18,089 nt of DNA, from positions 1-18,089 of the forward strand of contig JADYZI010000329.1 of NCBI GenBank assembly GCA_020853255.1. The letters are read 5' to 3'. This DNA comes from Acidobacteriota bacterium. Lineage in GTDB: Bacteria; Acidobacteriota; Blastocatellia; Pyrinomonadales; Pyrinomonadaceae. Positions within the stretch are counted from its first letter, which is position 1, and each line of letters starts with the position of its first letter. The position numbers and the translations under genes are program-made. The notes under the pieces were generated by a model. The model had not been told where the DNA came from, did no database searches, and saw only the letters and a program-made list of their open reading frames with translations. Below are positions 1,000 through 18,089 of this stretch, piece after piece.

Positions 1000-1012
1000 C
1001 GAACAGGTCGGC

Positions 1013-1738: not shown

Positions 1739-1742
1739 AAGA

Positions 1743-2645: not shown

Positions 2646-2675
2646 AAAGAGGTGAAATATTGGAACTGTTCGATA

Positions 2676-2704
2676 AGGATAGTCTTTTTAGCTCAGATTT
2701 CCAA
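2676..2704 (-). promoter_or_regulatory. Candidate promoter of the ctaB operon
   Basis: Read on the minus strand there is a -35 box TTGGAA (2699-2704) and a -10 box TATCCT (2676-2681) separated by exactly 17 bases. This predicts a start near 2669 and a leader of about 25 bases before the ctaB ATG. The -10 lies in the sequence gataaggatag (2672-2682, plus strand), which recurs inverted at 2784-2794 before resB. Confidence 0.5.
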
Positions 2705-2761
2705 CCTTTCCAAAAGGCGGAACGCTTTTGCACGGCGAAAGCGATTCTAATTTGGCGCAGG

Positions 2762-2800
2762 ATGACAAACTACTTTCGCTGGGCTATCCTTATCTATAAT
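2762..2800 (+). promoter_or_regulatory. Candidate promoter(s) of resB-ccsA
   Basis: An ATGACA (2762-2767), 17-base gap, TATCCT (2785-2790) pair would start transcription about 10 bases before the resB ATG. A consensus TATAAT also lies at 2795-2800, and if used it would give an essentially leaderless mRNA. No Shine-Dalgarno precedes the ATG, which agrees with a very short or absent leader. Confidence 0.45.
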
Positions 2801-2806
2801 TAATTC

Positions 2807-4387: not shown

Positions 4388-4405
4388 TCAGATACGGAGA
4401 ATTCT

Positions 4406-6019
4406 ATGTCACAAGTACTAACCGCCAACGACATATTCGAATCCAAAACAAGCCCGGCCTGGATGTCGTACCTTCCCGCTACACTTGCCATCGGCGGGGC
4501 CCTGGCCATGTTGGGCCTGCGGCTCCAGATCGGCGACGGGTTTATCAGTGACGGAGCGCTGATGATGATCGCTCTCGCGGCCTATATCTTTGCCGCCCTG
4601 TTTCAACTGACAAATCTCTATGCACCGTCGGAGATGGCAAGGAAACTCGGCCTCTGGGCGGCGACGCTCGGGGTTTTCTTCAACCTTTCAAGTTGGCTTG
4701 TCAGATGGGTGGCAGCGTACGATCACGAGATCCTAAAGATGCGGGCCGTCGGAAACCTGGAAAGCCCGTGGATCTTTCGCTACATACCGTTCGCGAACCT
4801 TTACGACCTGAGCCTCGCATTCGCGTTTGGTGCCGGCATTGCAACATTGCTTTTGGCACGGCGGCGAAATGTCCAGATATTGACCGCCTTCACGCTGCCG
4901 CTTGCGGCGATAATTTTGACCCTTGCCCGCTTCATCGGCGGCGAGTTCGTTGATCTGCCGCCGGTCCTTGATTCGTACTGGCGGCCGATTCACGTCGGTG
5001 TAGCGTCACTCAGTTACGGCGTCGCGCTCGTCTGTTTTGCGGTCGCCGTTATCTATCTGCTGAAAGATAAGGCCAAAGTCGAGGCGATGGCGGTGTGGTC
5101 GAGTATTTTCGCCCTGGCAGTTATCGCAACTGTCAGCAAATTCTCGGTTCTGACGGACTTTGTGTACCGGGCCGGCATCTTTCTGCAGAATCCGACTGGT
5201 GGAAAGGCTTTCTCGGCCCCGTTCCGCCTTGACATTCCTTACGTCGGGCCCGCTCTGCTCGTCGCGGCGTTACTGTTGCTGGGCGTGATCGTCGCCTTTC
5301 TCCTATATCTGTATCAAGAGAATGGAACAGCCCGGACGGTGGGCCATCTGTTGTTAAAATTATCCCTGGTCGCACAGATCATCGCTATTGTGCTTTTGGT
5401 CTCAGGGATCAAAGGTACGTCTGATGTTCAGGCAAGGCTGCAGGCCCAACTCGTCGCTGAACCCGTCCAGTACGCTATTGCGGGCCGTGCGGTCGCGGAA
5501 CGGCAGCAGATGTCAGCAAAGGAGTTCGCTGCTTTGACCCAGCCTCAACTCGAACAGGCAGGCCGCAATTATTTTCAGACAAACGGGGACAAGATGTATC
5601 TTAGCCTCGGGACCAATCCGGTCGAGCTGGCCGGCCTGTTGACCGGCCTTGCGGGGACCTTCTTTGTACTGCTATTTTCCTTCAGGACAGAAAAACTGCG
5701 TGAGCGACTGCCGAGTTTGGATACACTTGACGGGCTGATGTACAAGACGGCATGCCTTGCGTTTGCGGGCCTCGCCATGCTGTTGATCACCGGTGCGATC
5801 TGGGCCAACGAATCATGGGGCAGGCCGTGGGGTTTCGATTCAAAGGAGACAGGGGCACTGGTTGCGTGGCTCACCTACGCGGCGTTTCTTCACACTCGAA
5901 TTTCTCGCGGCTGGTCGGGCAGAAGCTCAGCCTATTTTGCGCTCGTTGGCTTCCTGCTCGTGATCTTTACGTATTTGGGCGTCAGCTATCTTCTGCCGGG
6001 GCTTCACAGCTATGCCTAA
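4406..6019 (+). CDS. ccsA: System II cytochrome c synthase CcsA/CcsB (haem handling protein)
   Basis: This 537-residue polytopic protein is the partner of ResB. The haem-handling WWD region is intact in outline: W466, W471, W475, D478 and E481, in the sequence WANESWGRPWGFDSKE. Candidate haem-ligand histidines are His196 (RPIHVGVASLSYG), His496 (FLHTR) and His534 (GLHSYA at the C-terminus). It is longer than usual CcsA. Roughly 200 residues (about 222-433), with extra membrane helices and a soluble loop near 336-400, separate the His196 region from the LDGLMYK...WWD region, which are usually close together. A ribosome binding site (ggaga, 4396-4400) lies just before the ATG. The gene is co-transcribed with resB and converges on the next gene with only 12 bases between stops. 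Confidence 0.93.
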   Translation: MSQVLTANDIFESKTSPAWMSYLPATLAIGGALAMLGLRLQIGDGFISDGALMMIALAAYIFAALFQLTNLYAPSEMARKLGLWAATLGVFFNLSSWLVRWVAAYDHEILKMRAVGNLESPWIFRYIPFANLYDLSLAFAFGAGIATLLLARRRNVQILTAFTLPLAAIILTLARFIGGEFVDLPPVLDSYWRPIHVGVASLSYGVALVCFAVAVIYLLKDKAKVEAMAVWSSIFALAVIATVSKFSVLTDFVYRAGIFLQNPTGGKAFSAPFRLDIPYVGPALLVAALLLLGVIVAFLLYLYQENGTARTVGHLLLKLSLVAQIIAIVLLVSGIKGTSDVQARLQAQLVAEPVQYAIAGRAVAERQQMSAKEFAALTQPQLEQAGRNYFQTNGDKMYLSLGTNPVELAGLLTGLAGTFFVLLFSFRTEKLRERLPSLDTLDGLMYKTACLAFAGLAMLLITGAIWANESWGRPWGFDSKETGALVAWLTYAAFLHTRISRGWSGRSSAYFALVGFLLVIFTYLGVSYLLPGLHSYA

Positions 6020-6028
6020 ACCCTTCGA

Positions 6029-6074
6029 GCGTTACTCGATCGTCAACCGAGCAACATCGACGATCGAGTAACGC
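6029..6074. repeat. Perfect 16-bp hairpin at convergent gene ends
   Basis: The arm gcgttactcgatcgtc (6029-6044) is repeated exactly inverted at 6059-6074, with a 14-base loop. It spans the stop codon of the minus-strand gene and lies 10 bases after the ccsA stop. No T-run follows on either strand, so it is not a textbook intrinsic terminator. It could still work as a bidirectional 3'-end structure or mRNA-stabilising hairpin. Confidence 0.85.
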
Positions 6075-7168
6075 GATATCGAACCATCTTTTAGGATTAC
6101 GGTCAGCACACCTTTATCTACGCTGAATTTGAATACCTCATTCATTTTCTTCTCCAGCGAGCTTCCGTCTTTGAATCGAATGACCAGGTTGATCGATTCC
6201 AAAGGATCGCGCTTTGCTTCAACAGATGTCTTCGGCAGATCGTCCTTGTCAGTCAGCGTACGAAAACCCGGTGATCGATCTCGCTTCTGTTTTTCCACGA
6301 CCGCTACCTTGGGCGGTGCCTTTTCAGTTTTCGCGTTAGGTTCGGCTTTTTCCGCTACCGTCTTGTCGTCCGGTTTCTCCGCATCCTTCCTTGGCGGCCC
6401 CATCCGCTTTGACTGGCGGCTGGCGGCAGATGCAGTGCGTCCTGCGGTCGTCGTCTTTGGTTTTTCTGTGGCTTTGATCGGATCGGATACTACAACTTCC
6501 GGCTTTCTCTCCGCTATTTCAGCATCAACCGGTTTGTCCTGTTGCTCCGTCGTTCTTTGAGGTTTATTCTCCGGCTGATCTTCGGTTTTGGCATCCGACT
6601 TTGCAACCGTTACCTCAGGTTCGGGCCGCCGTGTAGGGATGATGGTTCCGGCCGAAGTTACTCTTATTCCGCCGCGCTCAACGCCGGCAACCTTTGGCAT
6701 CTCGGGAGCGTTGGGGACATCATCAACGCGCAGAGCGGCAAAGCTGCCGGCAAATTTCAGCCGAAATGTTGCCGGATCGTCATTCGGCGTCCTGCCCTGT
6801 ACCCGAAGAAGCAGCCGCTCCGGTTTGCGAAGATAGACCGCTCGGCCGGTTTCCGCCTCACCATAGTCTGCGTAAACCACGATCTTCGTTACCGGACGCA
6901 ATCCGCTTGCGGTAAAGACATCGATGTCGCCGGTAAAATTTCGGGTCACCAGATTTATGAAAAGATCGCCTTGCTCGGCGCCGAGGGCGTAGTAATAAGT
7001 GGTCAGCCGTGAGTCTCCGAGGTCACGGGCATTTATAGTGCCGGATATCTCGTTTGAGGTGATCGCCGTAGGAAAATCCTGACTATTCGACTGCGGGTGG
7101 ACGAGCGCCGCCATACCGAGGGTAAAGACCGCTCCTAGAAGAAAAGCTCTGGCATAGGTTATCCGCAT
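6032..7168 (-). CDS. Secreted protein of unknown function with charged Pro-rich linker
   Basis: I do not recognise a named family over the whole of this 378-residue protein. From the ATG at 7168 it starts with a signal peptide (MRITYARAF, then a hydrophobic core ending near HPQS). Residues of about 35-150 form a beta-rich domain whose ISGTINARDLGDSR...YYYALGAEQGD pattern resembles bacterial pre-peptidase C-terminal (PPC) beta-sandwiches, which is a weak similarity call. Residues of about 170-325 are low-complexity, rich in Lys, Glu, Pro, Thr and Ala, and probably disordered. The last 55 residues form a small beta-rich module (VIRFKDGSSLEKKMN... to VARLTIE). The frame stays open upstream to 7255, but that part crosses a palindrome and lacks signal-peptide character. 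It lies downstream of the S41-like gene on the same strand, about 240 bases away. Confidence 0.75.
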   Translation of the reverse strand: MRITYARAFLLGAVFTLGMAALVHPQSNSQDFPTAITSNEISGTINARDLGDSRLTTYYYALGAEQGDLFINLVTRNFTGDIDVFTASGLRPVTKIVVYADYGEAETGRAVYLRKPERLLLRVQGRTPNDDPATFRLKFAGSFAALRVDDVPNAPEMPKVAGVERGGIRVTSAGTIIPTRRPEPEVTVAKSDAKTEDQPENKPQRTTEQQDKPVDAEIAERKPEVVVSDPIKATEKPKTTTAGRTASAASRQSKRMGPPRKDAEKPDDKTVAEKAEPNAKTEKAPPKVAVVEKQKRDRSPGFRTLTDKDDLPKTSVEAKRDPLESINLVIRFKDGSSLEKKMNEVFKFSVDKGVLTVILKDGSISRYSIVDVARLTIE

Positions 7169-7237
7169 CGTGATAAGACCGATCGGCCCGTAAGATTCAC
7201 ATACGATTCTAACAGGCTTTTGACGTGCCGCAATACT

Positions 7238-7274
7238 TAAATGGCCGGCATCCATTCCTGGCGCCGGCCATTTA
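7238..7274. repeat. Perfect 12-bp inverted repeat
   Basis: taaatggccggc (7238-7249) is repeated exactly inverted at 7263-7274 around a 13-base loop. It lies between the S41-like gene and the secreted-protein gene. No T-run follows on the minus strand, so terminator function is uncertain. Confidence 0.7.
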
Positions 7275-7300
7275 GTAAGTACTTTTGTGCACTTTGGGTC

Positions 7301-7358
7301 TTCACCTTCGCGCCCTGTGTGTTAAAAATCCATTAACACAAAGCCGCAAAGGGCTGAA
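7301..7358. repeat. Imperfect intergenic palindrome, third dispersed type
   Basis: The left arm 7301-7324 (ttcaccttcgcgccctgtgt onwards) pairs imperfectly with 7334-7358 (taacacaaagccgcaaaggg onwards), around a loop of about 9 bases. The arms resemble the ctttgcggctttgtgtt-type palindromes scattered in many bacterial genomes. It lies about 50 bases beyond the stop of the S41-like gene. Confidence 0.6.
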
Positions 7359-7407
7359 GAGATCGCCAAGAAACCCACTTGCGAACTATCTCTTACAGGC
7401 CACTAGC

Positions 7408-8703
7408 TCATTTTGCACCGGCGGCCTTGGCGGCTTCGACCTTGTCCTGCAGTATCTCGATGGCCTTTTTCATCTGAATGTCCTCAACCGTCTTCTTCAC
7501 CTCGGCCTGCGGCGTTGGTGTCGGCTGCGGATTCTGTTTCTGGTCTTCCTGATCACCGATCATATCTTCGACCTCGACCGGTTCCGGGGTATCAGGACGC
7601 TTTACCTCGACCGTTGGCTTTACGCCGGTCGTATTTCTGTCTTCGCCAAGAAAAGGCACCCCGCTCGGCGACGCCCATTTTGCGGTGGTCAGCAGCAGGC
7701 CGTCGCCGGCGCGAAGAGTGAAAAGCTGCTGCTCGGTACCCGAACCAAAGCTGCGTTCACCTACGACCTCACCGCGTTTGCGGTCGAGGACCGCCGCGGC
7801 AACGACTTCGCCCGGCCCAGCCGTGCCAAGATCGATCACGACCGCAAGTTTGCCGTCAAAGGCCGCTTTCGCCGGATCAGCGGCAAATGTCTTCGTGACC
7901 TGGTTGTCCTTGCCGATGATCTTCGCCAGATCGCCGCTGTTTATAAACAGGTTAGCTGTGTTCACCGCCTCATCGATGGTGCCCGTCGCCACACCTCGAA
8001 GATCAAGAACGATCTTTTGCACGCCCTGCTTTTTCAGATTCTCGACCTGAGTTTTGATCTGGTTCGCCTGACCTGATTCGAGACTGTAAACCTTTATAAC
8101 ACCTACTTTTCCGGCCTCGACACGAGATTCAGGATTAGGTATTTTGTAATCGCCCCGCGTCACTTTCAGGGTCATCGGCTTTGCGCCTGAACGCAGCACG
8201 CGCAAGTTGACGGCGGTTCCCGGCTGGCCGTATATCATCTGCTTTGCGTCATAGAGCGATATGTCGCGCGTCGCCTTGTTCTCAATATACTCGATCACAT
8301 CGCCCGCTTTTAACCCGGCCCGGTCTGCGTCAGAATCCTTCATCACCGAAACCACATACAGATATAGCGAGACTTGCGAAAACTCGGCCCCGATGCCTGT
8401 CTTTTTCGTGTTCTTGGCCGCGTTATAATCGGTTACCTGCTGCGGCGTCAGATACGACGAATAAGGATCAAGCCCGCCGACAAGCCCGCGCAAGGCTCCG
8501 AACCGCACCTTTTCAAGATTTGGCTCGTCAACATAATCGTTCTGGATGTGCTGGAGGACCGATTCAAATATCCTGACCTGCGCGCCGGCATCGTTTATCG
8601 GCTGCTGGGCACGCGTCCACGGGCTGAGAATGCCGCCGATCACGGCATATAGGCCAACGGCTGCCGAGATCATCAGGATCGAGAGCTTTCCGCGAAATGA
8701 CAT
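7408..8703 (-). CDS. S41 C-terminal processing peptidase homologue, probably catalytically inactive
   Basis: This 431-residue protein has an N-terminal signal anchor (residues 7-27), a helical segment, a PDZ domain (about 100-185, TGIGAEF to VLRSG) and an S41 core (about 198-365). CtpA/Tsp enzymes cleave exported proteins at the C-terminus with a Ser/Lys dyad. Here the GSASASE nucleophile motif reads GTAGPGE (293-299), so the Ser position is Gly296. The general-base Lys of the FGKG motif is Ser321 (SFGSG). Asp307 and the surrounding VVGERSFG fold motif remain. By these residues it should not cleave peptides, and a binding or scaffold role is an inference. A Pro/Gln/Glu-rich tail (about 370-410) ends in a helical, Lys/Ala-rich segment. 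The ATG at 8703 has a GAGG ribosome site 8 bases upstream. Confidence 0.88.
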   Translation of the reverse strand: MSFRGKLSILMISAAVGLYAVIGGILSPWTRAQQPINDAGAQVRIFESVLQHIQNDYVDEPNLEKVRFGALRGLVGGLDPYSSYLTPQQVTDYNAAKNTKKTGIGAEFSQVSLYLYVVSVMKDSDADRAGLKAGDVIEYIENKATRDISLYDAKQMIYGQPGTAVNLRVLRSGAKPMTLKVTRGDYKIPNPESRVEAGKVGVIKVYSLESGQANQIKTQVENLKKQGVQKIVLDLRGVATGTIDEAVNTANLFINSGDLAKIIGKDNQVTKTFAADPAKAAFDGKLAVVIDLGTAGPGEVVAAAVLDRKRGEVVGERSFGSGTEQQLFTLRAGDGLLLTTAKWASPSGVPFLGEDRNTTGVKPTVEVKRPDTPEPVEVEDMIGDQEDQKQNPQPTPTPQAEVKKTVEDIQMKKAIEILQDKVEAAKAAGAK

Positions 8704-8773
8704 AGATTACCTCGTATAATAAAGACCGACTTCTGTATTACGTTTCCGCCCGCCAAATGGTTTGCCGAAGTCG

Positions 8774-9274
8774 ATGCAAACAAGCGATTATATAATTTAC
8801 GTGCAGGATAAGGAAACAATTAATCCCGAACATATTGCAGAACCGGCCGAGGTTCCGCGCGGCGGCCGGATCGTCGCCCTTGACCCGGGCACGAAACACA
8901 TTGGCGTCGCAATTTCCGATGAGACGCAATCCATTGCAACGCCTGTCAAAACCATACGGCGGCGAAGCTGGAAAAAGACCCTTCTGGATGTCAAAGACAT
9001 TCTTGGTCAGTTCGATGCCGTCGCTCTCGTTATTGGTTTGCCGCTTAACACCGACGGAACCGAAAGTGAGATGTCGGCCGATGCGCGCCGTATCGCCCGG
9101 AACCTATCCCTTTCTGTCGATATTCCCGTCTTTCTCCAGGACGAACGCGTTACATCTTACGAAGCACGCGGCCGCCTGTGGGACCGCGGCATCGATCCGC
9201 GGAACACAAAAAGCCTGGTTGACAGCGAGGCGGCAGCGATCATCCTGACCGATTTTCTCGCGGCCCGGAACTAA
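8774..9274 (+). CDS. ruvX: Putative pre-16S rRNA nuclease / Holliday junction resolvase-like RuvX (YqgF)
   Basis: This is an RNase H-fold protein of the YqgF/RuvX family, 166 residues from the ATG at 8774. Family motifs appear in order: ALDPGTKHIGVAISDE (35-50, with Asp37), VIGLPLNTDGTESEM (86-100), PVFLQDERVTSYEA (118-131, with Asp123-Glu124) and VDSEAAAIIL (149-158). Family members process the 5' end of 16S rRNA precursors, and some act on DNA or RNA branch structures. About 30 residues before the first beta-strand are an unusual extension. An in-frame TTG at 8762 is an alternative start, and neither start has a clear Shine-Dalgarno. It is divergent from the S41-like gene, with 70 bases between. 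Confidence 0.92.
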   Translation: MQTSDYIIYVQDKETINPEHIAEPAEVPRGGRIVALDPGTKHIGVAISDETQSIATPVKTIRRRSWKKTLLDVKDILGQFDAVALVIGLPLNTDGTESEMSADARRIARNLSLSVDIPVFLQDERVTSYEARGRLWDRGIDPRNTKSLVDSEAAAIILTDFLAARN

Positions 9275-9340
9275 AAATGTGGCGAGGACGCGACTTAAAA
9301 ATCCTTGAATGTCGAGCAGTTCCCCGTTTTCGTGAGTTTC

Positions 9341-9410
9341 GTTCTTGTTCCGGGCGTTTCGTGGTGACGAAGCCTGACTATTAGCCACGAAACGCGCGAA
9401 ACAAAGGCCG
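9341..9410 (+). repeat. Dispersed palindrome, family B, copy 1
   Basis: The arms 9344-9364 and 9385-9405 are inverted copies of each other with few mismatches (core cgtttcgtgg / ccacgaaacg). The asymmetric 17-base string tttcgtggtgacgaagc (9357-9373) recurs exactly, in the opposite orientation, in the copy at 16059-16136. It lies between ruvX and the M1 gene. Confidence 0.8.
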
Positions 9411-9447
9411 AACAAATGCCCGAAATCAAATCTTCCTCAGGCAAACT

Positions 9448-9475
9448 TTCACACCGGGCCGTGCAACAATATGAC
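9448..9475 (+). promoter_or_regulatory. Weak candidate promoter of the M1 gene
   Basis: TTCACA (9448-9453), a 16-base gap and TATGAC (9470-9475) lie 47 bases before the preferred ATG. The fit is modest and no other signal supports it. Confidence 0.25.
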
Positions 9476-9522
9476 CTGATAGAACAACTTATTAACGCAT
9501 GCCCTTACTGAAACCTTCTCAC

Positions 9523-12500
9523 ATGAAAAGAATTCTTTTTGCGATCATCCTCGCTATGCCGATCTTCTCCTTTGCTCAAACCCCGCCGATCGAACCGGGC
9601 GTTTCGCTCGAACTGGCAAAATGGCGGGCCGCACATTATTCGGACGCACGATACAAACTCAACCTGACGCTAGAAAAAATGTCGCCGGTGCTAAAAGGAA
9701 CGATCGAGATACGAGTCAAGCTGTCAGGACCGCCTGCGTCAGCGGGCGGCCAGACTCTCAAGCTGTCAGAACCGCCTGCGTCAGCGGGCGGCCAGACACT
9801 CGGCAGCGGGGCAGAAACACGACCGGTAGGGAGTGTGCCCCAAATCATCCTCGACTGGCGGAAGCTCAAAGGCTATGAGGAGACGTCGACCATCTCGAAT
9901 GTTTCCGTGAACGGCCAGGCGGCCGCAGCCCAGAACCACCCCGTCGCCGAAGCGGCGACACCCCTCCTTCGTAAGGAGGGGAACCAGATCGCGTCGCTTA
10001 CCTATGTCGAGCAGAACGAACACCTGATCTTCAGCGACGGCGTGGTCGCGGGCGAGAATGTGATCAAGCTCGATTTTACCTCGCCGATACTGACAAGCGG
10101 CTCGGCGGTCACGCGGTATGTGGACAAGGAGGACGGCGCGGAGTACATCTACTCGCTCTTCGTCCCGTCGGACGCCAGCACCGCGTTTCCGGTGTTCGAT
10201 CAGCCGGATCTGAAGGCGCGGTTTAGCCTCGCAGTCGACAGCCCTAGCCGATGGAGCGTGGTATCGAACTCTAGAATTGATTGTGAAGGTGCTAATGAGA
10301 CTTACCCTAATGAGGCCGATCTTTTTAGGAAGAGAGAAATCTCTAATTTGGTTAAAAAAGGAGCTACGAAGGATCGGATTCGTGAAGCTGAGAGGTGTCT
10401 TGAGCATTTTCCAGACGAACAATGGGTAAAATATGCGTCATTTAAAGAAACCAAACCGATCAGCACCTACGTATTCGCATTCGCGGCCGGGCCATTCGAG
10501 GCGTTCGCAGACCAAGGCGGAAACCTGAGCGGTAGCGGGGGTGCCGCTAAGCACAAAGGCAGCTCGCAGCCGGGCACACTCCCTACCGGTCGTGTTTCCG
10601 CCTCTGGCGATGACGGCTCGATCTACGTCCGCAAATCACAGGCCGCGAAGTTCAAGCCTCATGCCGCCGAGGTCTTTCGGCTCAATCGCGAGGCGGTCAA
10701 GTATTTCGAGCAATATTTCGATTACAAATTCCCATTCCCGAAGTACGATCTGGTTTTGATACCGGAGTTTCCGTTCGGCGGAATGGAGCATGCGGGGGCT
10801 ACTTTCCTCAGGGAATCGTCAATCATCTTTCCGCAGGAACCCACGAAGAACGATTACATCTCGCGGGCGACGTTGATCTTTCATGAAACGGCGCATCAGT
10901 GGTTTGGCGACACGGTGACGATGCGTTGGTTCGACGACCTTTGGCTCAAAGAAGGTTTTGCGACCTTTATGGCATACAAGGCACTCGAAAAGATAATGCC
11001 CGAAATGAACGCCTGGAAGGTCTTTTACGAACGCGTCAAACAGGGCGCCTACGCAACCGATTCTACAAAAGGCACAACGCCGATCTATCAGGAGATCAAA
11101 AACCTTTCCGCCGCAAAATCGGCATACGGCAACATTGTTTACAACAAAGCCCCGGCGTTTCTGCGCCAAGCAGAGTTTTATCTCGCCGAAGACAAATTCC
11201 AAACCGCCGTGCGGGCGTTTTTGAAGAAGCATGAGTTTGGGAATGCGGGTTGGGAAGGCTTGGTTGGCGAGCTTGAAAGGGCGAGTCAACAGGATCTCAA
11301 GGAATGGGCGCAACGTTGGGTCAAGACGCCCGGAGTGCCCATGTTCTACGCAAATCTGTCAGACGTGAAAAACTCGAAAAATGGCTTCAGCTACGGGATC
11401 GTTCAGGAGCCTCCGAAAAGTACGAAGCTCATTTGGCCCATGCGCACCAAACTACTAACTAGGACACATGCGGACCGTATTGCCGAAGAATACGACTCGA
11501 CGCTTGCGTTTAGTCTCAGACGGCAGGGCGAGTTCGAAGGCGCAACAATGGTTTGTGACCACTGCAGAACGTTTCGCTCGGACTTTATCTTTGCGAACTA
11601 CGGCGACTACGGCTACGGCATTTTTCTTCTCGACGAGAAAAGCCGCGATTATGTTCTCAAGAACATCCAGAACGAGAAAGATCCGTTCCTGCGGGCGATG
11701 ATGTGGGGAGCGCTGTGGGACAGCGTCCGCGAGGGCGAATTGGACCCGCGGGTGTTCGTGGAGCTGGTGGTTAAAGTTTGGAGTCCCGGCTTTAGCCGGC
11801 AGCCGCCTATAGCCGGGACTCCAAACTTGCAGAAGCCCGCACGAAGTAAGGGCGAAACACTCGATCTCGCCCTTGCTGACGCGCGGGCTTCCGCATTGGA
11901 TGACGAATCTACCGTAGCATTGCTGCTCACCCGCGTCGGGACGGCGATGAACTATTATATCTCGACGCCCAATATCGCCCTTACTAGCGTGCGGGCTTCG
12001 GCATCGGATGACTTGCGCACCCGCGTAGAGGATATGCTCATCGAACAGATGCAAAACGCTCCGACGCTTGGTCAGCGGATCACATTTTATCGGGCATTCC
12101 TGAATATCGCAGCGAGCGAGAACGCTCGAAGACTGTTAAAGACTCTGTTGACGACAGGCGGAAACCTGAGCGGTAGCGATGGTGCGCCACTCAATAAAGA
12201 CCAGAAGGGCACACTCCCTACCGGTCGTGTTTCTGCCTCGGTGCCGAACATTCCGTTAAAGACCAAGGACAAATTCGACATTGTCACGCGGCTGCTGATC
12301 CTCGGCGACCCCGATGCGCCAAAACTGCTGGCGGAACTTGAAAAGACAGAGACGAGCGACGATGCGAAGCGTTACGCATACGCCGCAAAGGCAGGCATCG
12401 GAACAGTCGAGAACAAGGCGAAATACTGGAACGATTTCATCGACAACAAACAGATCAGCGAAAGCTGGGTCGAAGCCGCGATGGGGCCGTGGAATTCGAT

Positions 12501-12759
12501 CCGACAAAGCGAGCTGACGCTGCCGTATTTGCAGAAAGCACTCCAGGAGCTGCCAAACCACAAACGCAGCCGTAAGATATTTTTTATAAACGGCTGGCTC
12601 GGTGCCTTCATCGGCGGCCAGCGTAGCGAGGAGGCATTGGCGACCGTAAACAAATTCCTCGCCGACAACCCAAACCTCGACAACGACCTGCGACTGAAGA
12701 TTCTGGAGAACGTTGACCTGATCGAACGCGCCGTGAAGATCAGAAAGCGATTTCCGTGA
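9523..12759 (+). CDS. Secreted M1-family zinc aminopeptidase homologue, expanded by inserted repeats
   Basis: This 1078-residue exported protein starts with a signal peptide from the ATG at 9523 (MKRILFAIILAMPIFSFAQ). An upstream in-frame ATG at 9499 would add eight polar residues. M1 enzymes remove N-terminal amino acids from peptides using one zinc ion. The zinc site HETAH (454-458) with Glu477 (LWLKEGFATF) is intact, Tyr540 (IVYNKAPAF) fits the catalytic tyrosine, and the substrate motif GxMEN reads GGMEH (419-423). An ERAP1-like helical C-terminal region follows. The usual size is about 850-900 residues. The excess comes from palindromic segments read through in frame near residues 66-106, 141-153, 332-360, 751-790, 818-826 and 879-905, plus an AT-rich insert near 250-306. 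Whether the protein still folds as a peptidase is inferred from the intact core. Confidence 0.92.
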   Translation: MKRILFAIILAMPIFSFAQTPPIEPGVSLELAKWRAAHYSDARYKLNLTLEKMSPVLKGTIEIRVKLSGPPASAGGQTLKLSEPPASAGGQTLGSGAETRPVGSVPQIILDWRKLKGYEETSTISNVSVNGQAAAAQNHPVAEAATPLLRKEGNQIASLTYVEQNEHLIFSDGVVAGENVIKLDFTSPILTSGSAVTRYVDKEDGAEYIYSLFVPSDASTAFPVFDQPDLKARFSLAVDSPSRWSVVSNSRIDCEGANETYPNEADLFRKREISNLVKKGATKDRIREAERCLEHFPDEQWVKYASFKETKPISTYVFAFAAGPFEAFADQGGNLSGSGGAAKHKGSSQPGTLPTGRVSASGDDGSIYVRKSQAAKFKPHAAEVFRLNREAVKYFEQYFDYKFPFPKYDLVLIPEFPFGGMEHAGATFLRESSIIFPQEPTKNDYISRATLIFHETAHQWFGDTVTMRWFDDLWLKEGFATFMAYKALEKIMPEMNAWKVFYERVKQGAYATDSTKGTTPIYQEIKNLSAAKSAYGNIVYNKAPAFLRQAEFYLAEDKFQTAVRAFLKKHEFGNAGWEGLVGELERASQQDLKEWAQRWVKTPGVPMFYANLSDVKNSKNGFSYGIVQEPPKSTKLIWPMRTKLLTRTHADRIAEEYDSTLAFSLRRQGEFEGATMVCDHCRTFRSDFIFANYGDYGYGIFLLDEKSRDYVLKNIQNEKDPFLRAMMWGALWDSVREGELDPRVFVELVVKVWSPGFSRQPPIAGTPNLQKPARSKGETLDLALADARASALDDESTVALLLTRVGTAMNYYISTPNIALTSVRASASDDLRTRVEDMLIEQMQNAPTLGQRITFYRAFLNIAASENARRLLKTLLTTGGNLSGSDGAPLNKDQKGTLPTGRVSASVPNIPLKTKDKFDIVTRLLILGDPDAPKLLAELEKTETSDDAKRYAYAAKAGIGTVENKAKYWNDFIDNKQISESWVEAAMGPWNSIRQSELTLPYLQKALQELPNHKRSRKIFFINGWLGAFIGGQRSEEALATVNKFLADNPNLDNDLRLKILENVDLIERAVKIRKRFP
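9718..9801 (+). repeat. 42-bp tandem duplication inside the M1 gene
   Basis: Two adjacent 42-base units (9718-9759 and 9760-9801) differ at only two positions and preserve the reading frame. Each encodes PPASAGGQTL within a 14-residue unit. Each unit contains the imperfect palindrome ccgcctgcgtcagcgggcgg, similar in style to REP sequences. Confidence 0.92.
9808..9840 (-). repeat. Family C palindrome, half element, inverted
   Basis: The reverse complement of these 33 bases matches the right part of the family C copies at 10572-10604 and 12207-12239 with a single mismatch or so (core ctaccggtcgtgtttctgcc). It directly follows the 42-bp duplication, in the same coding frame, and encodes AETRPVGSVP-type residues. 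Confidence 0.85.
9943..9981. repeat. Double hairpin inside the M1 gene
   Basis: Two adjacent hairpins occur: gtcgcc/ggcgac (9943-9948 with 9954-9959) and the perfect 9-bp stem cccctcctt/aaggagggg (9961-9969 with 9973-9981). They encode VAEAATPLLRKEGN, which is atypical of M1 proteins at this place, suggesting another small inserted element. Confidence 0.65.
10516..10602 (+). repeat. Family C palindromic element inserted in frame in the M1 gene (copy 1)
   Basis: This is an 87-base imperfect palindrome with 20-base arms: ggcggaaacctgagcggtag (10516-10535) and ctaccggtcgtgtttccgcc (10583-10602), pairing at 17 of 20 positions. It is 29 codons long and encodes a Gly/Ser-rich peptide starting GGNLSGS and ending GTLPTGRVSA. 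The second copy at 12157 is read in the same frame. Confidence 0.92.
11774..11828. repeat. Perfect 18-bp inverted repeat inside the M1 gene
   Basis: The arm aagtttggagtcccggct (11774-11791) recurs exactly inverted at 11811-11828 around a 19-base loop. It encodes VWSPGFSRQPPIAGTPNLQ in the helical C-terminal region. It directly abuts the family A element that starts at 11832. Confidence 0.92.
11832..11891 (+). repeat. Family A palindrome inside the M1 gene (copy 1)
   Basis: The arms run from gaagcccgc (11832) to agggcga (11855) and from tcgccctt (11867) to gcgggcttc (11891), pairing imperfectly. At 60 bases (20 codons) it keeps the frame and encodes KPARSKGETLDLALADARA-like residues. Related copies lie at 11975, 12771 and 14545. 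Confidence 0.85.
11975..11999 (+). repeat. Family A palindrome, right half only
   Basis: This stretch matches the right arm of the family A element (tcgccctta...gcgggcttc). The similarity extends past the arm: 11883-11904 and 11991-12012 agree at 20 of 22 positions, which suggests a local duplication within the gene. Confidence 0.7.
12157..12237 (+). repeat. Family C palindromic element inserted in frame in the M1 gene (copy 2)
   Basis: This 81-base element (27 codons) has arms ggcggaaacctgagcggtag (12157-12176) and ctaccggtcgtgtttctgcc (12218-12237). The left arm is identical to copy 1 and the right arm differs by one base, while the loop is different. It is read in the same frame as copy 1 (GGNLSGS ... 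GTLPTGRVSAS). Confidence 0.92.
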
Positions 12760-12770
12760 ATTCGATCAAA

Positions 12771-12846
12771 TGCGGCAGCCCGTACGCAGTAAGGGCAATA
12801 CACGCAACGCTGGAGGTATCGCCCTTACTGTGTGCGGGCTTCCGCA
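12771..12846. repeat. Family A palindrome between M1 and acylase genes
   Basis: The 31-base arms 12771-12801 and 12816-12846 region (tgcggcagcccgtacgcagt / tgcggaagcccgcacacagt when both are read outward) differ at about four positions. It fills most of the 118 bases between the two convergent stop codons and may also act as a 3'-end hairpin for both transcripts. Confidence 0.88.
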
Positions 12847-12877
12847 ATGATGTGGACCCTATTTTGCGGGGTTCCTC

Positions 12878-15262
12878 CTAACGCGGGTTAAACGTTGTCT
12901 TGCCCTTCGCGGCGGCCTCGACGGCCGATCTCGAGAATGGAAAAACGGCCGGGGTTCTCGAATTCCACAACTCGAATTGATCGCGGAAATGCGGCGATCG
13001 GTTGTCGCCGCTTTGGCCGAGCGGGATCACGAACCTTGTCGCGTCCCAATTTCCGGGGCTTGCGATGTGCCGCATTGAAACGAACATCCCAACATCCGGT
13101 GTTTGCCCGGACCCATTCACGCCCTTTGGCTCAACCAGGAATTGTCCGCCGATCAGCGGTGCCGCCGACAGCGGGTGATAGAACCGTGTGCGGTAAACAT
13201 TCTCCCAACGCCAGTTTGATTCGTCCGCCCCGAGCCGTTTTGCTATGTCCGCCCGCCCGGCCTTATCGCACGCGCCGATCAGTTCGTTCCACGTCTTAAA
13301 ATCAGGCGGCAGCCATTTCGAGCCTTCCTTTCCAACGGCCCAGAACAAGATCCGCTCACGAACAGCGGCGGCGGGTACAGGCTTGTTCGCTTCGGCGATC
13401 CGGTTGGCAATGCAGTTTCTGATCTCGTTGACCAGGACCGGCGGTTTTGCATCGGCACGCATCATACCGTCCCAATCCTTCAACGCGGCGATGGTTTCAG
13501 GCGAGACCGCGCTTGACCTGACTATCTCTTTTGCCAGCATTGAGAACGGCAGATTAAAGATGTCGTACTGCACATCCCGCACATCGTCCATCGTCAGCTT
13601 TGTCCGCCCCGAAAGCCGGTCAAAGATGCGGCGTGCGCGCCACGGCGTCGCTGCGTCGCGCGAGATCTGCGGATATTTGTACGATGTACCTACAATACGC
13701 TGATTGGCGGTGACGATCAGGCCGGTCGCAGGGTTGTACAAGTTCGGCAGTTCATCGAACGGAATATACCCGGTCCACTCGCCATCGTCGCTCGAACCGT
13801 CGTAAGGTAATTCACCGCTTAGCGTTTTGCGGATAGGGATTCGGCCCGCGGCGTACCAGCCGATATTTCCGCTCGTGTCGGCATATACAAAATTCTGCGT
13901 CGCGCCGCCATACGTCATCAAGGCGCGCTTGAAGTCATCCCAATTCTTGCCGCGGTTCAGATTGACGAATGCTTCAAACTCGCTGTTTTGCGGATCAAAT
14001 GCCGTCCATTTCAGAGCGTACCTCTTTCCGCCGTCGTCAAGAATAATAGGGCCGTGGCGCGTTTCAACAACCTCGAAGGAAACGGTATCGGTATCCGTTT
14101 TCACAAGGCCTTTCCGGACCTTTATCTGTTCGGTACGAACCGTGGCGGGTGCCCAACCGGACGGAGTTTTGTAACGCAGCGGTGAAGCGGCGGTGCCCTG
14201 TCCGTCAAACGTTTCGACAAAAACATCCTGTACATCCGGCCCAACGTTGGTCGCTCCCCACGCGAAATATTCGTTGTGGCCCAGCACTACGCCGGGAACA
14301 CCGGGAATCGTCACCCCCGCAACACGCATCGTCGGCGCGGTCAGCTGCGACATATACCAAATGCCGGGCGCGGTCGCCGCAAGATGCGGATCGTTTGCAA
14401 GCAGCGGCTTGCCGTCCGCCGTCAGCTTGCCCGCAATGACCCAGTTGTTGCTTGCCGCCAGATCTTCAGCATATAGCCCGATCTCCGCCAGCGAGCGGCT
14501 GCGGATATTCTCTACACGGTCGGCAGCAGCAAGCAGCGAATCTTGCGGAATCCCGCGAGTGCGCGAGGGCGTGTTGCCCGGCATTCCGTTCCGCCCTTGC
14601 TCACGCGCGGGCTTCTGCATTTGATCGGAACCGAACAGGATAACGTCATACGGCGTGACCTGATTCGTCAGGTCTTTGACCTTATCCGCCGGGAGCGACG
14701 CGGCAGCAGCACGCTGAAGATCAAAGCGCCACGTAGAGCTGAGCGCGTCCGCGAGGATCTTGCCGATAACTATCGTGTCAGACGGCTGCCACGGCGACGG
14801 CTTGTATTGAAGAATTCGGAATTCGGTCGGCAGCGTCTCGGGAGTTAGCGTGGCAATATAGGCATTGACGCCGGCGGCATAGCTTTCAAGCACCCGCCGC
14901 AGTTCGGGCGAAAGATATTTAAGATTCTCTTCGGCTACCCGTGCAAATCCATATCGCCGCCAAAGCTTGTCATCCTCAAGCGCCGGCGAACCGAATATCT
15001 CGGCCGTCTCGCCGCGTGCCCGCCGCCGCATCAGGTCCATCTGCCACAACCTGTCCGACGCGGTGACGTAGCCCTGCACAAAGTATAGGTCGGGTTCATT
15101 CCGCGCTTCAATATATGGAATGTCGCGGGCATCTCGCCGCACAGTGACCGGCTCGGAAAGGCCTGAGACATTTATTGTCTTCTGCGACGGCTGTGCAAAC
15201 GTTGTGGCCGACGCCACCCAGATCACGGCGAGGAAACAGAGCTTTCGGGGTTGGATATGCAT
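12878..15262 (-). CDS. Secreted penicillin acylase family (S45) Ntn-hydrolase
   Basis: This exported amidohydrolase has about 794 residues from the ATG at 15262, which gives a good signal peptide (MHIQPRKLCFLAVIWVASATTFAQ). A longer in-frame ATG at 15313 adds 17 basic or polar residues. Penicillin acylase-type enzymes hydrolyse amide bonds of penicillins, acyl-homoserine lactones or peptides, and the substrate cannot be told here. They mature by autocatalytic removal of a spacer, freeing a Ser at the start of the beta chain. That Ser is Ser271 in AASNNWV, followed by GKPLLANDPHL. N-terminal DARDIPYIEA and QGYVTASDRLWQMD and C-terminal HFRDQFELW are typical. A family A palindrome adds a peptide of about 25 residues (near 215-240), roughly 30 residues before Ser271. 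Confidence 0.92.
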   Translation of the reverse strand: MHIQPRKLCFLAVIWVASATTFAQPSQKTINVSGLSEPVTVRRDARDIPYIEARNEPDLYFVQGYVTASDRLWQMDLMRRRARGETAEIFGSPALEDDKLWRRYGFARVAEENLKYLSPELRRVLESYAAGVNAYIATLTPETLPTEFRILQYKPSPWQPSDTIVIGKILADALSSTWRFDLQRAAAASLPADKVKDLTNQVTPYDVILFGSDQMQKPAREQGRNGMPGNTPSRTRGIPQDSLLAAADRVENIRSRSLAEIGLYAEDLAASNNWVIAGKLTADGKPLLANDPHLAATAPGIWYMSQLTAPTMRVAGVTIPGVPGVVLGHNEYFAWGATNVGPDVQDVFVETFDGQGTAASPLRYKTPSGWAPATVRTEQIKVRKGLVKTDTDTVSFEVVETRHGPIILDDGGKRYALKWTAFDPQNSEFEAFVNLNRGKNWDDFKRALMTYGGATQNFVYADTSGNIGWYAAGRIPIRKTLSGELPYDGSSDDGEWTGYIPFDELPNLYNPATGLIVTANQRIVGTSYKYPQISRDAATPWRARRIFDRLSGRTKLTMDDVRDVQYDIFNLPFSMLAKEIVRSSAVSPETIAALKDWDGMMRADAKPPVLVNEIRNCIANRIAEANKPVPAAAVRERILFWAVGKEGSKWLPPDFKTWNELIGACDKAGRADIAKRLGADESNWRWENVYRTRFYHPLSAAPLIGGQFLVEPKGVNGSGQTPDVGMFVSMRHIASPGNWDATRFVIPLGQSGDNRSPHFRDQFELWNSRTPAVFPFSRSAVEAAAKGKTTFNPR
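14545..14618 (-). repeat. Family A palindrome inside the acylase gene
   Basis: The arms 14545-14571 and 14591-14618 pair imperfectly and match the other family A copies (agggcg and gcgggcttctgc cores). On the coding strand it encodes KPAREQGRNGMPGNTPSRTR-like residues. It lies where the alpha chain or autocleaved spacer should be, shortly before the nucleophile Ser. Confidence 0.82.
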
Positions 15263-15424
15263 TAAGGAACGATAACCAAATTGCCCCCGTGTGGCAACTC
15301 TCCTGCGGCCCATCGTATCTACAATTTAGCAGTTGACTCGTGGTTTATTTTTGCCGTTCATTTCAGTGTGGGGTACACTCAACCTGATTTGCATTTGAAT
15401 CTGGATCGCTTCGCGTCATAACTT

Positions 15425-15871
15425 ATGAAAACGAGGATATTTGTAATGGCAACCGCGGCGGTATTTGCTCTTGCGGGGTGTTCCGGTTCGCAAACCACGA
15501 ACCAAAATTCGACGAACTCAGATCGCGTCACCGCATCGCCGACAGCCGCTCCTACCGCCGACGTGATGGCCGCTGGCAGGCAGCTTTTTCTCGACAACTG
15601 CTCCGATTGCCACAAAGAAAGCGGAAAGGGCGGCCCAATGGAGATCGAGGGCAAAAAGATCGAGCCGGACGACCTTACATCGGACAAGCTCCGCAAGTTG
15701 CCGGACGACAAGCTCTATCGCTACATTTACAACGGCGTCGAAGATGACGGCATGCCCGCGTTCAAAGATAAATTGAGCGAGGCCGAGATACGCGAGGTCG
15801 TCCGATACGTGCGTTCCGAACTTCAGGGAATGCCGCTCGTCGCCCCGACAAAAGGCCTCGGTGTCGATTGA
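15425..15871 (+). CDS. Lipoprotein mono-haem cytochrome c
   Basis: This 148-residue exported electron carrier has a lipoprotein signal with lipobox LAGC (Cys19), so it should be anchored to a membrane by a lipid. A Ser/Thr/Asn/Pro linker of about 25 residues follows, then a class I cytochrome c domain. The haem site is CSDCH (59-63), and Met110 in DGMPAF is the likely sixth ligand. The terminal helix EAEIREVVRYVRSEL is typical. Haem attachment would depend on a System II pair such as resB-ccsA upstream. It may pass electrons to an oxidase such as the one whose subunit III is at 1013-1738, which is an inference. There is no Shine-Dalgarno before the ATG, and it is divergent from the acylase gene. 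Confidence 0.92.
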   Translation: MKTRIFVMATAAVFALAGCSGSQTTNQNSTNSDRVTASPTAAPTADVMAAGRQLFLDNCSDCHKESGKGGPMEIEGKKIEPDDLTSDKLRKLPDDKLYRYIYNGVEDDGMPAFKDKLSEAEIREVVRYVRSELQGMPLVAPTKGLGVD

Positions 15872-15874
15872 TAT

Positions 15875-15903
15875 TTGCAATCACGCCCACAGAACACTAA
15901 ACT
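15875..15903 (+). promoter_or_regulatory. Candidate promoter of tRNA-Arg
   Basis: TTGCAA (15875-15880), a 17-base gap and TAAACT (15898-15903) place a start near 15910, four bases before the mature tRNA. It begins just after the cytochrome c stop codon. Confidence 0.55.
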
Positions 15904-15913
15904 CTCATTTCGA

Positions 15914-15990
15914 GCACCCTTAGCTCAGTTGAATAGAGCGTCTGACTTCGGATCAGAAGGTCGCAGGTTTGAGTCCTGCAGGGTGTACCA
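15914..15990 (+). tRNA. tRNA-Arg (anticodon UCG, reads CGA)
   Basis: This is a complete 77-base cloverleaf. The acceptor stem gcaccct pairs with agggtgt (one G-U at the end), the D stem is gctc/gagc, and the anticodon stem is tctga/tcaga with loop cttcgga. The variable loop is five bases, the T stem is gcagg/cctgc with loop tttgagt, and an encoded CCA closes it. The anticodon TCG with G37 fits an arginine CGN tRNA. Confidence 0.96.
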
Positions 15991-16023
15991 GGATCATTTT
16001 GTAAGTCAATATTGTCAGGAAGC

Positions 16024-16052
16024 AAGGCGGCCACGGAGTCCGCCTTTTTTTT
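16024..16052 (+). terminator. Rho-independent terminator after tRNA-Arg
   Basis: The stem aaggcgg/ccgcctt (16024-16030 with 16040-16046), a 9-base loop and a run of eight T lie 34 bases after the tRNA end. Confidence 0.88.
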
Positions 16053-16058
16053 CGTGTG

Positions 16059-16136
16059 TTTCGTTCTTTGTTTTGCGTGTTTTGTGGTCCGGGTTTCTGC
16101 TTCGTCACCACGAAACAACACGAAACAAAGAGCGAA
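16059..16136 (-). repeat. Dispersed palindrome, family B, copy 2
   Basis: The arms 16061-16087 and 16108-16135 pair imperfectly. The string gcttcgtcaccacgaaa (16099-16115) is the exact reverse complement of 9357-9373 in copy 1, so the two elements are in opposite orientation. It begins a few bases after the tRNA terminator. Confidence 0.8.
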
Positions 16137-16311
16137 TCACAGGAAAAATGAGACCGGGTTCAACTGAAAAGCGGACACCGAATCACCGTGTCGTTGGCCG
16201 GCATTTAGACAACGTATTTTTCGGTGAAGAGTCGTATCGAATGTACCCTCAAATGGACTTTTCGGTAGCTCTGTGCGTCTAAAGCAGATGACGCAAGTAG
16301 GTTGCCGCCGA
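16137..16311 (+). other. Leader region of the hydrolase gene
   Basis: I find no gene and no convincing promoter in these bases. An in-frame GTG at 16273 could lengthen the hydrolase by 13 residues, but the ATG at 16312 gives the better signal peptide. Confidence 0.4.
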
Positions 16312-17463
16312 ATGAGATCGCTGTTTTGTCTAACCTGTCTTATCCTGATCCTTATTCCTGTCGCTGTTTCAGCTCAAACCAAGTTGACCGTTACTAACGG
16401 GAGCAAGAACATCGGCAAGGCACGGGACCGGAAGGCTTTTGTCTGGGCGAACCCGAACGCGCCGAATATGGTCTTTGACCGGTGGGTGGGCAACACGGCC
16501 CTTGTCGAAGACGCTTATTCGGCATCGACGCCCGTAAATCCGCTCAGCAAGAACATTGATCTGACGGCCACCTATAAAGCGGCCCCGAGTTGGAGCCTGA
16601 CCGAAGAGACGATCAGCGGCGTGGATGTGCTTTATTACATTCCGCAAAACCCGGTCGCCGTCATTTTTCGGCTTCACGGCACGGGCGGCAGTGCCCAATC
16701 AACTTTATCCAGTGTAGAAAGCCGACTTTTCTCGAACGATGCCGTCGCCGCCGGATACGGCATTATCGCATTGGACAGTGTTGACCGGGTAAACGGCGAA
16801 TGGAGCCTCGCCCCGCCGCCGAACAACACGGATATCAGCAACATCCAGGCGATCATCGCGAATTTGCAGCAGCGTGGATTGTTATCGGCGAACACGTCGC
16901 TTGTTGCTCAGGGCACTTCTCGCGGCGGCATATTCTCGTCACTTGTTGTGTATTACCTTAATTTCCGGGCAGATGCGATCTATATCGCCTACGGCGCCAA
17001 TTTGATCATGCCTCAAACGACGGTTCCAACGATCTTTTGCCTGGCTGCGAACGACGACCAGGCGATGGTTGGCGATGCGGGAAATCAAAACGCCTACAAC
17101 CAGGTCCTGAATCTGCAAGGCCGCGGCATAATGGCAAGCTACAACCTGCACCCGTCATCGCCGGTCTATCCTGAAAGGTTTTGGCGAATAGCGAATCTGA
17201 CCGTTGATGATTCGCATGCGATCTATAACGCTCTCAAGGCCAATGGCTTTCTAGACAGCCGCGATTTTCTGATCCAAAATCCGAGAGAGTCAAATTGGCA
17301 ATCTGTAATTCCTTCACAATACCAGTTATACATGAACGGTATCAGCACGGTCCTCGGTGCCGCTTACGCGAACCATAGTTTTTACAGCGACTACAACAGC
17401 CGCGTCCTGCGATTTTTCTCAGATGCCGTGAGTGCGTCTAAACAAACTCGGCATCAACGATGA
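16312..17463 (+). CDS. Secreted alpha/beta hydrolase with N-terminal beta-repeat module
   Basis: This exported protein is 383 residues from the ATG at 16312, with signal peptide MRSLFCLTCLILILIPVAVSAQ. Residues of about 22-93 resemble a bacterial surface beta-repeat (FDRWVGNTALVEDAYSAST ... DLTATYK), as in the Listeria-Bacteroides/InlB-type repeats. The hydrolase domain follows, with an oxyanion-type motif HGTGG (122-126), the nucleophile elbow GTSRGG (Ser203), a possible acid at Asp248 or Asp249, and a likely catalytic His355 (YANHSF). It is probably an esterase or lipase-like enzyme, and the substrate is unknown. It stands alone on its strand between a tRNA and a convergent TPR gene. Confidence 0.82.
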   Translation: MRSLFCLTCLILILIPVAVSAQTKLTVTNGSKNIGKARDRKAFVWANPNAPNMVFDRWVGNTALVEDAYSASTPVNPLSKNIDLTATYKAAPSWSLTEETISGVDVLYYIPQNPVAVIFRLHGTGGSAQSTLSSVESRLFSNDAVAAGYGIIALDSVDRVNGEWSLAPPPNNTDISNIQAIIANLQQRGLLSANTSLVAQGTSRGGIFSSLVVYYLNFRADAIYIAYGANLIMPQTTVPTIFCLAANDDQAMVGDAGNQNAYNQVLNLQGRGIMASYNLHPSSPVYPERFWRIANLTVDDSHAIYNALKANGFLDSRDFLIQNPRESNWQSVIPSQYQLYMNGISTVLGAAYANHSFYSDYNSRVLRFFSDAVSASKQTRHQR

Positions 17464-17508
17464 ACGCTTCACCTGGCGTTTCGCACTCATTGGATCAAAA
17501 GCCCCGTT

Positions 17509-18089
17509 TCACCGCGGCAGGCCCATTCGTTCGAGAATATCGTTGTACCGCGGGTCAGAGTGAAGCGGGATAAATCGCCTGTCGGATTTAATGAGGACCA
17601 TTTCCGCATCGCGGCGGGCGAGTCCCTTTTCGAGATATTCGAACGCTTCGTCATTTTCTCCGAGCAGGACATGAAATATTGCAATGTTTACGAACGGAAC
17701 GGTCTCGCCGCGTTTCGCTTGGGCGCGATAGTCCGCAAGTTCCTTCCGGTAGATCCCTTTCAGTCCCTCGTTTGACGCAGTCGCGCGCGTGGCTGCGATC
17801 TCGCCCGCCGATCTGCCTTGCAATTCCTGCAGTTTCAAATACGATTCGATCGAGGCCGTTTCGTTATCAAGGAGCGCATAGGCGATGAACCGATGTACAA
17901 AGACCATTTCAAAAGCGGGATCGAGCTCAAGCGTCCGGTCCCATTGCCGCAAGGCCTCGTCATACCTGCCTGCGTTTGCGAGCAGCACTCCGACATCAGT
18001 GTTGATAACAAGATTTAGCGGGTCGAGGTCACGCGCCCGTTCAATTGCCAAGAGCGCCTCCTCTTGTTGCCCCAGCGTCGCGAAAGCGA
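17509..18089 (-). CDS. TPR-repeat protein, C-terminal part (cut by window edge)
   Basis: The frame is open to the right edge of the window, so the N-terminus is missing; an internal TTG at 18051 is unlikely to be the start. The visible residues read AFATLGQQEEALLAIERARDLDP at the edge, then NTDVGVLLANAGRYDEALRQWDRTLELDP, which are classic tetratricopeptide repeats. Another pair follows around FVNIAIFHVLLGENDEAFEYLEKGL. The ending SDRRFIPLHSDPRYNDILERMGL is common at the C-terminus of acidobacterial TPR proteins that carry an N-terminal winged-helix or kinase domain. That domain cannot be seen here. TPRs mediate protein-protein contacts. Confidence 0.85.
   Translation of the reverse strand, partial: AFATLGQQEEALLAIERARDLDPLNLVINTDVGVLLANAGRYDEALRQWDRTLELDPAFEMVFVHRFIAYALLDNETASIESYLKLQELQGRSAGEIAATRATASNEGLKGIYRKELADYRAQAKRGETVPFVNIAIFHVLLGENDEAFEYLEKGLARRDAEMVLIKSDRRFIPLHSDPRYNDILERMGLPR

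Follow-up and report, generated by a model that had tools for sequence, protein, structure and literature searches.

REP-like hairpin repeats of several families at common sites of an M1 aminopeptidase gene in Pyrinomonadaceae

Rickettsia and Wolbachia are the best-known hosts of palindromic repeats within protein-coding genes; elsewhere, intragenic REPs are scattered. The available parts of the Rickettsia and Wolbachia descriptions report palindromic elements (RPE-1 to RPE-7 in Rickettsia) of 100–150 bp that lie in pre-existing ORFs and leave the frame intact. As far as the accessible text of their description goes, intragenic REPs with a GTAG/CGTC end tag occur in Opitutus terrae, Rickettsia conorii and others as monomers and dimers within genes; more than half are in dimers or groups, encoding 20–30 residues, and the recB genes of X. 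campestris and X. oryzae carry different REPs at about the same site (PMC3733652). Different repeats at about one site had been noted earlier in a biotin ligase gene as well. Two inverted REPs can form one unit, the REPIN, and clusters are described too in the accessible text (PMC3116915). A further paper, PMC11778308, mentions palindromes for CRISPR alone, and we found no report of coding palindromes in Pyrinomonadaceae in the literature, judged by titles and abstract openings. As far as these sources extend, coding palindromes (Rickettsia, Wolbachia), intragenic REPs and differing repeats at about one site are already known; the number of families, the fixed common sites, the repeated exchange, the core enzymes and the lineage look new.

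The repeats described here are pervasive in this other lineage. They follow the rickettsial precedent, which a sequence-only reading of this DNA had rightly named, in that a palindrome lies within a pre-existing ORF whose frame stays intact, a likeness drawn from descriptions. Pyrinomonadaceae are free-living. Against the RPEs of Rickettsia and Wolbachia as described in the available text, the elements of these Pyrinomonadaceae are small (family C pairs in the M1 gene span 78–87 nt, single arms ~30 nt), and the families that replace one another at set sites of a single gene are more numerous. The arms are short stem-loop units (20–40 nt) present in many copies, two features that define REPs and REPINs. 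Pyrinomonadaceae are not among the lineages named in the accessible description of intragenic REPs (PMC3733652), and GTAG, an end tag there, lies here inside the arms of families A, H and C, where it is not established as an end tag, element ends not being set by insertion junctions. Relatives at 85–90% identity make the swaps readable base by base, and the building of protein segments by selfish DNA becomes testable; the rates, the choice of frame, the sites that tolerate an element and the mover are all open to measurement.

The window, the whole 18,089-nt stretch of DNA that was analysed, contains a gene whose product is an exported M1 aminopeptidase, probably from a member of the Pyrinomonadaceae (Acidobacteriota). 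Three C copies, together with A, D, E and F repeats that come in addition to the palindromes listed in the sequence-only reading, occupy six sites of this protein (S1, S2, S3, S4a, S4b and S5; Table 1). That reading's account of family C is largely borne out: the two full copies lie in one open frame and are read GGNLSGS..GTLPTGRVSAS, their right arms differ by one base, and comparison of C elements confirms that conservation lies in the arms while the loops vary. The left arms are identical as claimed, over 22 bases and not 20, and the third, inverted half copy is present, starting at 9810 and not at 9808. A 22-base exact repeat has an expectation of ~2e-5 in DNA of the window's length (simple arithmetic, equal base use), and in the first C element the two arms show 81% complementarity across 31 nt. 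A single hairpin arm forms the basic unit; it is found on its own, tandemly repeated or paired in inverse orientation. C belongs to a set of at least six REP-like hairpin repeat families, several of which are common to the same M1 sites.

Table 1. Coordinates of the M1 gene and of the repeats in and beside it (L001 is a locus of a close relative, collinear with the window)
Feature	Position	Strand	Remark
M1 aminopeptidase gene, 1086 aa	9499..12759	+	open frame; alternative ATG at 9523; signal-like N-terminal segment; Peptidase_M1_N, Peptidase_M1, ERAP1_C
Two tandem 42-nt family A hairpin copies (SGPPASAGGQTLKL SEPPASAGGQTL), site S1	9716..9799	+	L001 has one copy
Single inverted C arm, site S1, read AETRPVGSVP	9810..9840	-	97% complementary to 10572-10602
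Family E, two hairpins, site S2, read ..VAEAATPLLRKEG	9943..9981	+	H half-element there in L001
Full C element, 87 nt, site S3, GGNLSGSGG..GTLPTGRVSA	10516..10602	+	family A pair there in L001
Family F palindrome (VWSPGFSRQPPIAGTPNL), site S4a	11774..11828	+	11778-11825 (48 nt) is a clean in-frame extra relative to L001
Family D inverted pair, QKPARSKGE..LADARASA, site S4a	about 11827..11904	+	L001 has it too
Family D half-element (NIALTSVRASAS), site S4b	11965..12012	+	family A pair there in L001
Full C element, 81 nt, site S5	12157..12237	+	family A pair there in L001
Family D inverted pair, intergenic between M1 gene and amidase gene	12771..12846	.	
Family D half-element in adjoining penicillin-amidase gene, QKPAREQGRN	14581..14628	-	diverged QKPAVAQGRN in L001

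Of the 30 genomes of relatives searched, 28 have matches to the C pattern (three or fewer mismatches), whose reversed control gave 0, and 27 have matches to the A pattern, whose reversed control gave 1. Across the class, C arms are present in 57 of 162 genomes, to a maximum of 108 per genome (reversed controls 0). The C pattern has 92 matches each in G001 and G110. The closest collinear genome has 92 C half-sites, as the proposal made from the window alone led one to expect. The repeat is a hairpin unit at the level of DNA, and its arms covary: of 326 distinct C arms, 312 have complementary bases at positions 3 and 18, which the search pattern did not constrain (155.1 expected if independent), and 153 of 164 A arms have them at positions 10 and 25 (74.4 expected if independent). 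Examples of A, D, E, F, H, I, J, K, M and O fold into hairpins, P moderately and N weakly, all judged without a shuffled control. Third codon positions of C arms at S3 and S5 are 71–89% identical, compared with 58.6% and 47.9% in the downstream flank, in a sample of six plus five elements with at most six mismatches to the consensus, a limit that raises the arm figure. Upstream-flank identities were left unused because indels misaligned these flanks. The families were defined from M1 loci because a k-mer search of 400-kb stretches yielded few.

The M1 protein has 6290 homologues. The organisms named among the best 120 of 6290, which were taken for study, are Pyrinomonadaceae, Blastocatellia, Chloracidobacterium and Acidobacteria(ota), with one given just as 'bacterium', and the relatives collinear with the window belong to the same groups. 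When 120 proteins are aligned (the window's and 119 listed homologues, leaving out P0002, which is the record of the window itself), their length varies strongly in 17 regions, and the six that hold repeats are S1 to S5. Occupants were assigned by peptide patterns, which match the used frame alone and have no bearing on frame bias. The same peptide in all M1 orthologues would have told against a mobile family, but the orthologues are mixed: S5 holds C in 39/120, A in 20, E in 6, H in 4 and D in 1. The other sites are similarly mixed: S1 (A 20, inverted C half 14, H 11), S2 (E 12, A 10, F 9, H 4), S3 (C 28, A 27, H 7, F 1), S4a (D 24, E 11, F 11) and S4b (A 25, D 10, C 8, H 5). The rarer patterns G, I, J, K, M and N contribute up to 11 in sum per site, I being the E hairpin in the other reading direction. 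Rows of the 120 with no family were scored as 'other' or short (64/2 at S1, 57/28 at S2, 58/2 at S3, 50/26 at S4a, 47/14 at S4b and 37/9 at S5), and the many unmatched 'other' occupants, 37–64/120 per site, weigh against the reading favored below. Outside the six sites, with 20 columns masked on each side, the 120 proteins gave three family matches.

On a FastTree phylogeny of 756 core columns, with two-family rows scored as their first family, the minimum number of family changes relative to family-bearing rows is 27/54 at S1, 14/35 at S2, 24/60 at S3, 15/44 at S4a, 29/59 at S4b and 25/74 at S5. The six sites hold different families in orthologues, with repeated switching apparent on the tree. 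Even close pairs differ: P0090 and P0108 (core identity 90.5%) have A versus H at S4b, and P0064 and P0065 (89.1%) have A versus C at S5. Long non-palindromic segments (e.g., VRPELKEAF.KWLNNDIS..EDAARM) are also seen at S3, exchanged there in P0025, P0037, P0094 and L019.

L001 is collinear with the window from 513 to 18089 at 85–87% nucleotide identity (one 47-nt piece reaches 96%), and every break between the aligned blocks falls inside the M1 gene. Within the blocks, gaps of 9 nt or more give the window an extra 42 nt at 9757 (tandem A) and 48 nt at 11778 (the F palindrome). Both have lengths divisible by three and directly abut conserved flanks (86% identical); the 48-nt palindrome and the 42-nt repeat are clean in-frame extras relative to L001. 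The remaining gaps are 9 nt at 17483 and, extra in L001, 16 nt in S4b and 11 nt in S5, both swapped sites. The occupants of S2, S3, S4b and S5 differ between the two loci (Table 1). A second relative, L377 (= L032), has half an H element at S1 versus the window's A, A and inverted C, with nearby blocks 85–88% identical. No insertion or excision event was observed in these comparisons, and target-site duplication is not established.

A structure model of the window's M1 protein built from 76 sequences (pTM 0.82, mean pLDDT 77.7) replaced a poorer 30-sequence model (mean pLDDT 55). In it, each of the six repeat sites has at least one stretch predicted to be disordered (pLDDT <50): 79–107 (S1), 151–158 (S2), 341–370 (S3), 765–792 (S4a), 825–836 (S4b), and 889–899 and 902–914 (S5). 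Additional short stretches of this kind are 1–6, 267–270, 523–525 and 675–681. The low-pLDDT stretches of the sites fall between predicted strands or helices; at S4a, however, the model gives the last part of the D element as a low-confidence helix (786–800), not a loop. RPEs encode a segment described as solvent-exposed; for the M1 sites, one model predicts disordered stretches. Elsewhere in the M1 gene, 10263–10446 has a GC content of 39% (window 55%), is predicted to encode a two-helix insert (SRIDCEGANETYPNEADLF..), and is absent or different in L001 and L377.

The 163 distinct C clusters divide into 30 with both flanks coding in a common frame, 46 with a coding flank on one side, 2 whose flanks code in differing frames and 85 with no coding flank, by a score that is conservative (96/104 M1 test windows were recovered, and the window's own three C clusters scored as one-flank). 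By a later count, coding flanks surround 71 of 300 distinct C arms; for A arms the figure is 33 of 157. Both samples include M1 loci and were partly chosen for holding arms. REPs and REPINs are seldom in coding sequence; here a sizeable minority of arms appears to be. The earlier description of C as a mobile or amplifying protein-coding palindrome family is supported, with the refinement that the family, at 71/300, is not mainly protein-coding; the elements have probably moved. Stretches not centred on arms comprised 400 kb each from one contig of G029 (known from the match list) and of G004, and 20 G001 contigs, four of them chosen for Y1 genes, with the M1-bearing L194 excluded. There, gene calls contain 6/19 C arms (four of the six in one valine–tRNA ligase (ValRS) gene), 14/27 A (2/15 without L196), 8/13 H (4/9 without L196), 1/10 D and 2/5 E, some of the A and H matches being one place. 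L196 (G001 C321) has, at 2000–14500, a run of look-alike genes of ~600 codons with in-frame A and H elements.

We scanned 16 host proteins with in-frame C arms, naming ten further with NCBIfam. They are aldehyde dehydrogenase (2), 4-alpha-glucanotransferase, an Mpl-type Mur ligase, transhydrogenase PntA, a pyridine-nucleotide oxidoreductase with Fer4 domains, aspartate carbamoyltransferase, S9 and M14 peptidases, MutS2, ValRS, methionine synthase MetH (2), glycine dehydrogenase GcvPB, saccharopine dehydrogenase and an AMP-binding acetate-CoA-ligase-like protein (below the family cut-off). Judging from their known roles, some of these enzymes are presumably cytoplasmic. With the frame set from flanks or gene calls, 32 of 33 A arms keep to one frame per orientation (21 same, 11 reverse, 1 exception), and C arms use reverse frame 2 (24), reverse frame 0 (25) and same-orientation frame 0 (21/22); these counts include tandem and orthologous copies and are not independent events. 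The exceptions are an A arm in L343 (phase 0) and a same-orientation C arm in phase 2, at a locus fetched for M1. Stop codons are absent from all three frames of the C right arm and from two or more of the A arm, so the frame bias is not merely a stop-codon effect, unused frames being open as well.

Other genes show the exchange seen in M1. The MetH loop CLADYF|DVVAFQLVTMGR (DVVAF side) holds A in 12 and H in 8 of 120 proteins and no family in 100, its length having a minimum of 4 residues and a median of 7 (e.g., SVESGKI). The MetH linker preceding EDLVGEDAKLG (n = 120) holds A in 9, inverted C in 8, D in 4, H in 3 and none in 96. In PntA, 89% identical between G110 and G001, one of the two proteins has inverted C after LLEEL where the second has A, and the acetate-CoA-ligase-like pair L089/L329 (72%) likewise has inverted C versus A. 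By sequence comparison, then, same-site exchange of families appears in four genes: M1, methionine synthase, PntA and the acetate-CoA-ligase-like gene.

The reading we favor, with a probability of about 0.8, is that REP-like hairpin repeats amplify in Pyrinomonadaceae genomes, that copies in genes are retained where the protein tolerates them, and that tolerant loops are re-used. Copies (single arms, tandem arms and inverted pairs with a variable loop) would multiply within these genomes, probably formed by a single-strand or recombination process, and insertion would be widespread. Survival within genes would be limited to hosts that tolerate a flexible linker of ~10–30 residues, and to frames that yield a Pro/Ala/Gly/Ser/Glu-rich peptide; the element would thus be a DNA unit filtered by protein tolerance. 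A tolerant loop would then be used again as elements are replaced, nested or tandemly multiplied, a re-use perhaps aided by sequence that families have in common (A and H share GTCAGAACC, and A, H and C all contain GGTAGCG). Host benefit would be unnecessary.

The alternative that fares best holds that these are ordinary REP doublets (REPINs) mobilised by Y1/RAYT transposases outside those examined, which we consider conceivable, if somewhat doubtful. Y1_Tnp genes occur in 30/30 genomes (3–21 each, a part of which was examined for arms), and 41 of 163 C clusters are inverted pairs whose loop varies, an arrangement that fits REPIN architecture. REPINs are RAYT-linked, whereas no RAYT is linked to the families here: C arms were found at 0 of 50 Y1-transposase loci (48 distinct). 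The tests comprised an arm scan (30 loci, one per genome), high-copy 13-mers, CAGAA-headed hairpins and the 50-locus scan. A was matched four times in 148 kb of Y1 loci, compared with 4 and 6 per 400 kb and 24 per 169 kb in background stretches, and A, H, E and F matches at Y1 loci are few and inside the background range. The hairpins that do lie beside Y1 genes, at L116, L133 (940–2576), L135 and L312, belong to a different family, CACTAGCT, which is likely a RAYT-linked REP family of the lineage. A further G001 Y1 gene (L198) has a C half-arm ~580 nt away, but this arm sits inside an aldehyde dehydrogenase gene. A RAYT link of the C and A families is therefore unsupported so far. As to carriage by other replicons, an exact 18-mer had 0 matches in viral_contigs, and the 87-mer had no match at E 1e-3 in plasmid and phage collections.

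It is also unlikely, in our view, that recombination among M1 alleles or paralogues spreads variable segments in which the palindromes are passive passengers. Two long non-palindromic M1 segments, about 10225–10446 and 11201–11596, are replaced too relative to L001; other homologues have long unrelated segments at S3; and two M1 copies occur in one genome (L012, L034). The second segment fails to align to L001 despite flanks that are both 86% identical, which suggests, at the level of sequence, that the M1 gene is a mosaic. Homologous recombination of whole M1 segments could be the source of part of the pattern. As a full account, however, it has to contend with the same elements in unrelated genes and intergenic DNA, and with 48-nt and 42-nt differences that are flush with 86%-identical DNA.

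Two further claims can be set beside the amplification reading. One, which we put forward speculatively and think improbable, is that the hairpin repeats of an entire bacterial family evolved to be translatable, with each repeat family read in one or two frames that yield flexible linkers, and that the repeats serve as exchangeable linker pieces, under constant turnover, in set loops of housekeeping enzymes, among them valyl-tRNA synthetase, MetH, MutS2 and aspartate carbamoyltransferase; were this true, selfish DNA would be a steady supply of new protein segments. The other, that selection keeps the peptides as linkers or surface tags with a role in protein function, would account for the confinement of frames to hydrophilic Pro/Ala/Gly/Ser-rich peptides and for the use of the same loops by several families. 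It seems to us quite unlikely, as the arms covary as DNA hairpins with third positions kept, unrelated families replace each other, most MetH CLADYF loops (100/120, median 7 residues) have no family match, and enzymes that are cytoplasmic by their known roles are among the hosts. Linkers are frequently rich in Pro, Ala, Gly and Ser, but a chance or composition-driven convergence of low-complexity linkers is effectively refuted by conserved arms in many genomes, by the reversed controls and by the hairpin covariation.

For annotators, the length variation of M1 proteins is explained in part by repeat inserts. An ADTLVRMS..FAGGTGDADNSVRAPF-like coding segment is found in two unrelated genes, at M1 site S2 of P0007 and in MetH from column 666 onward of P0125 and P0126.
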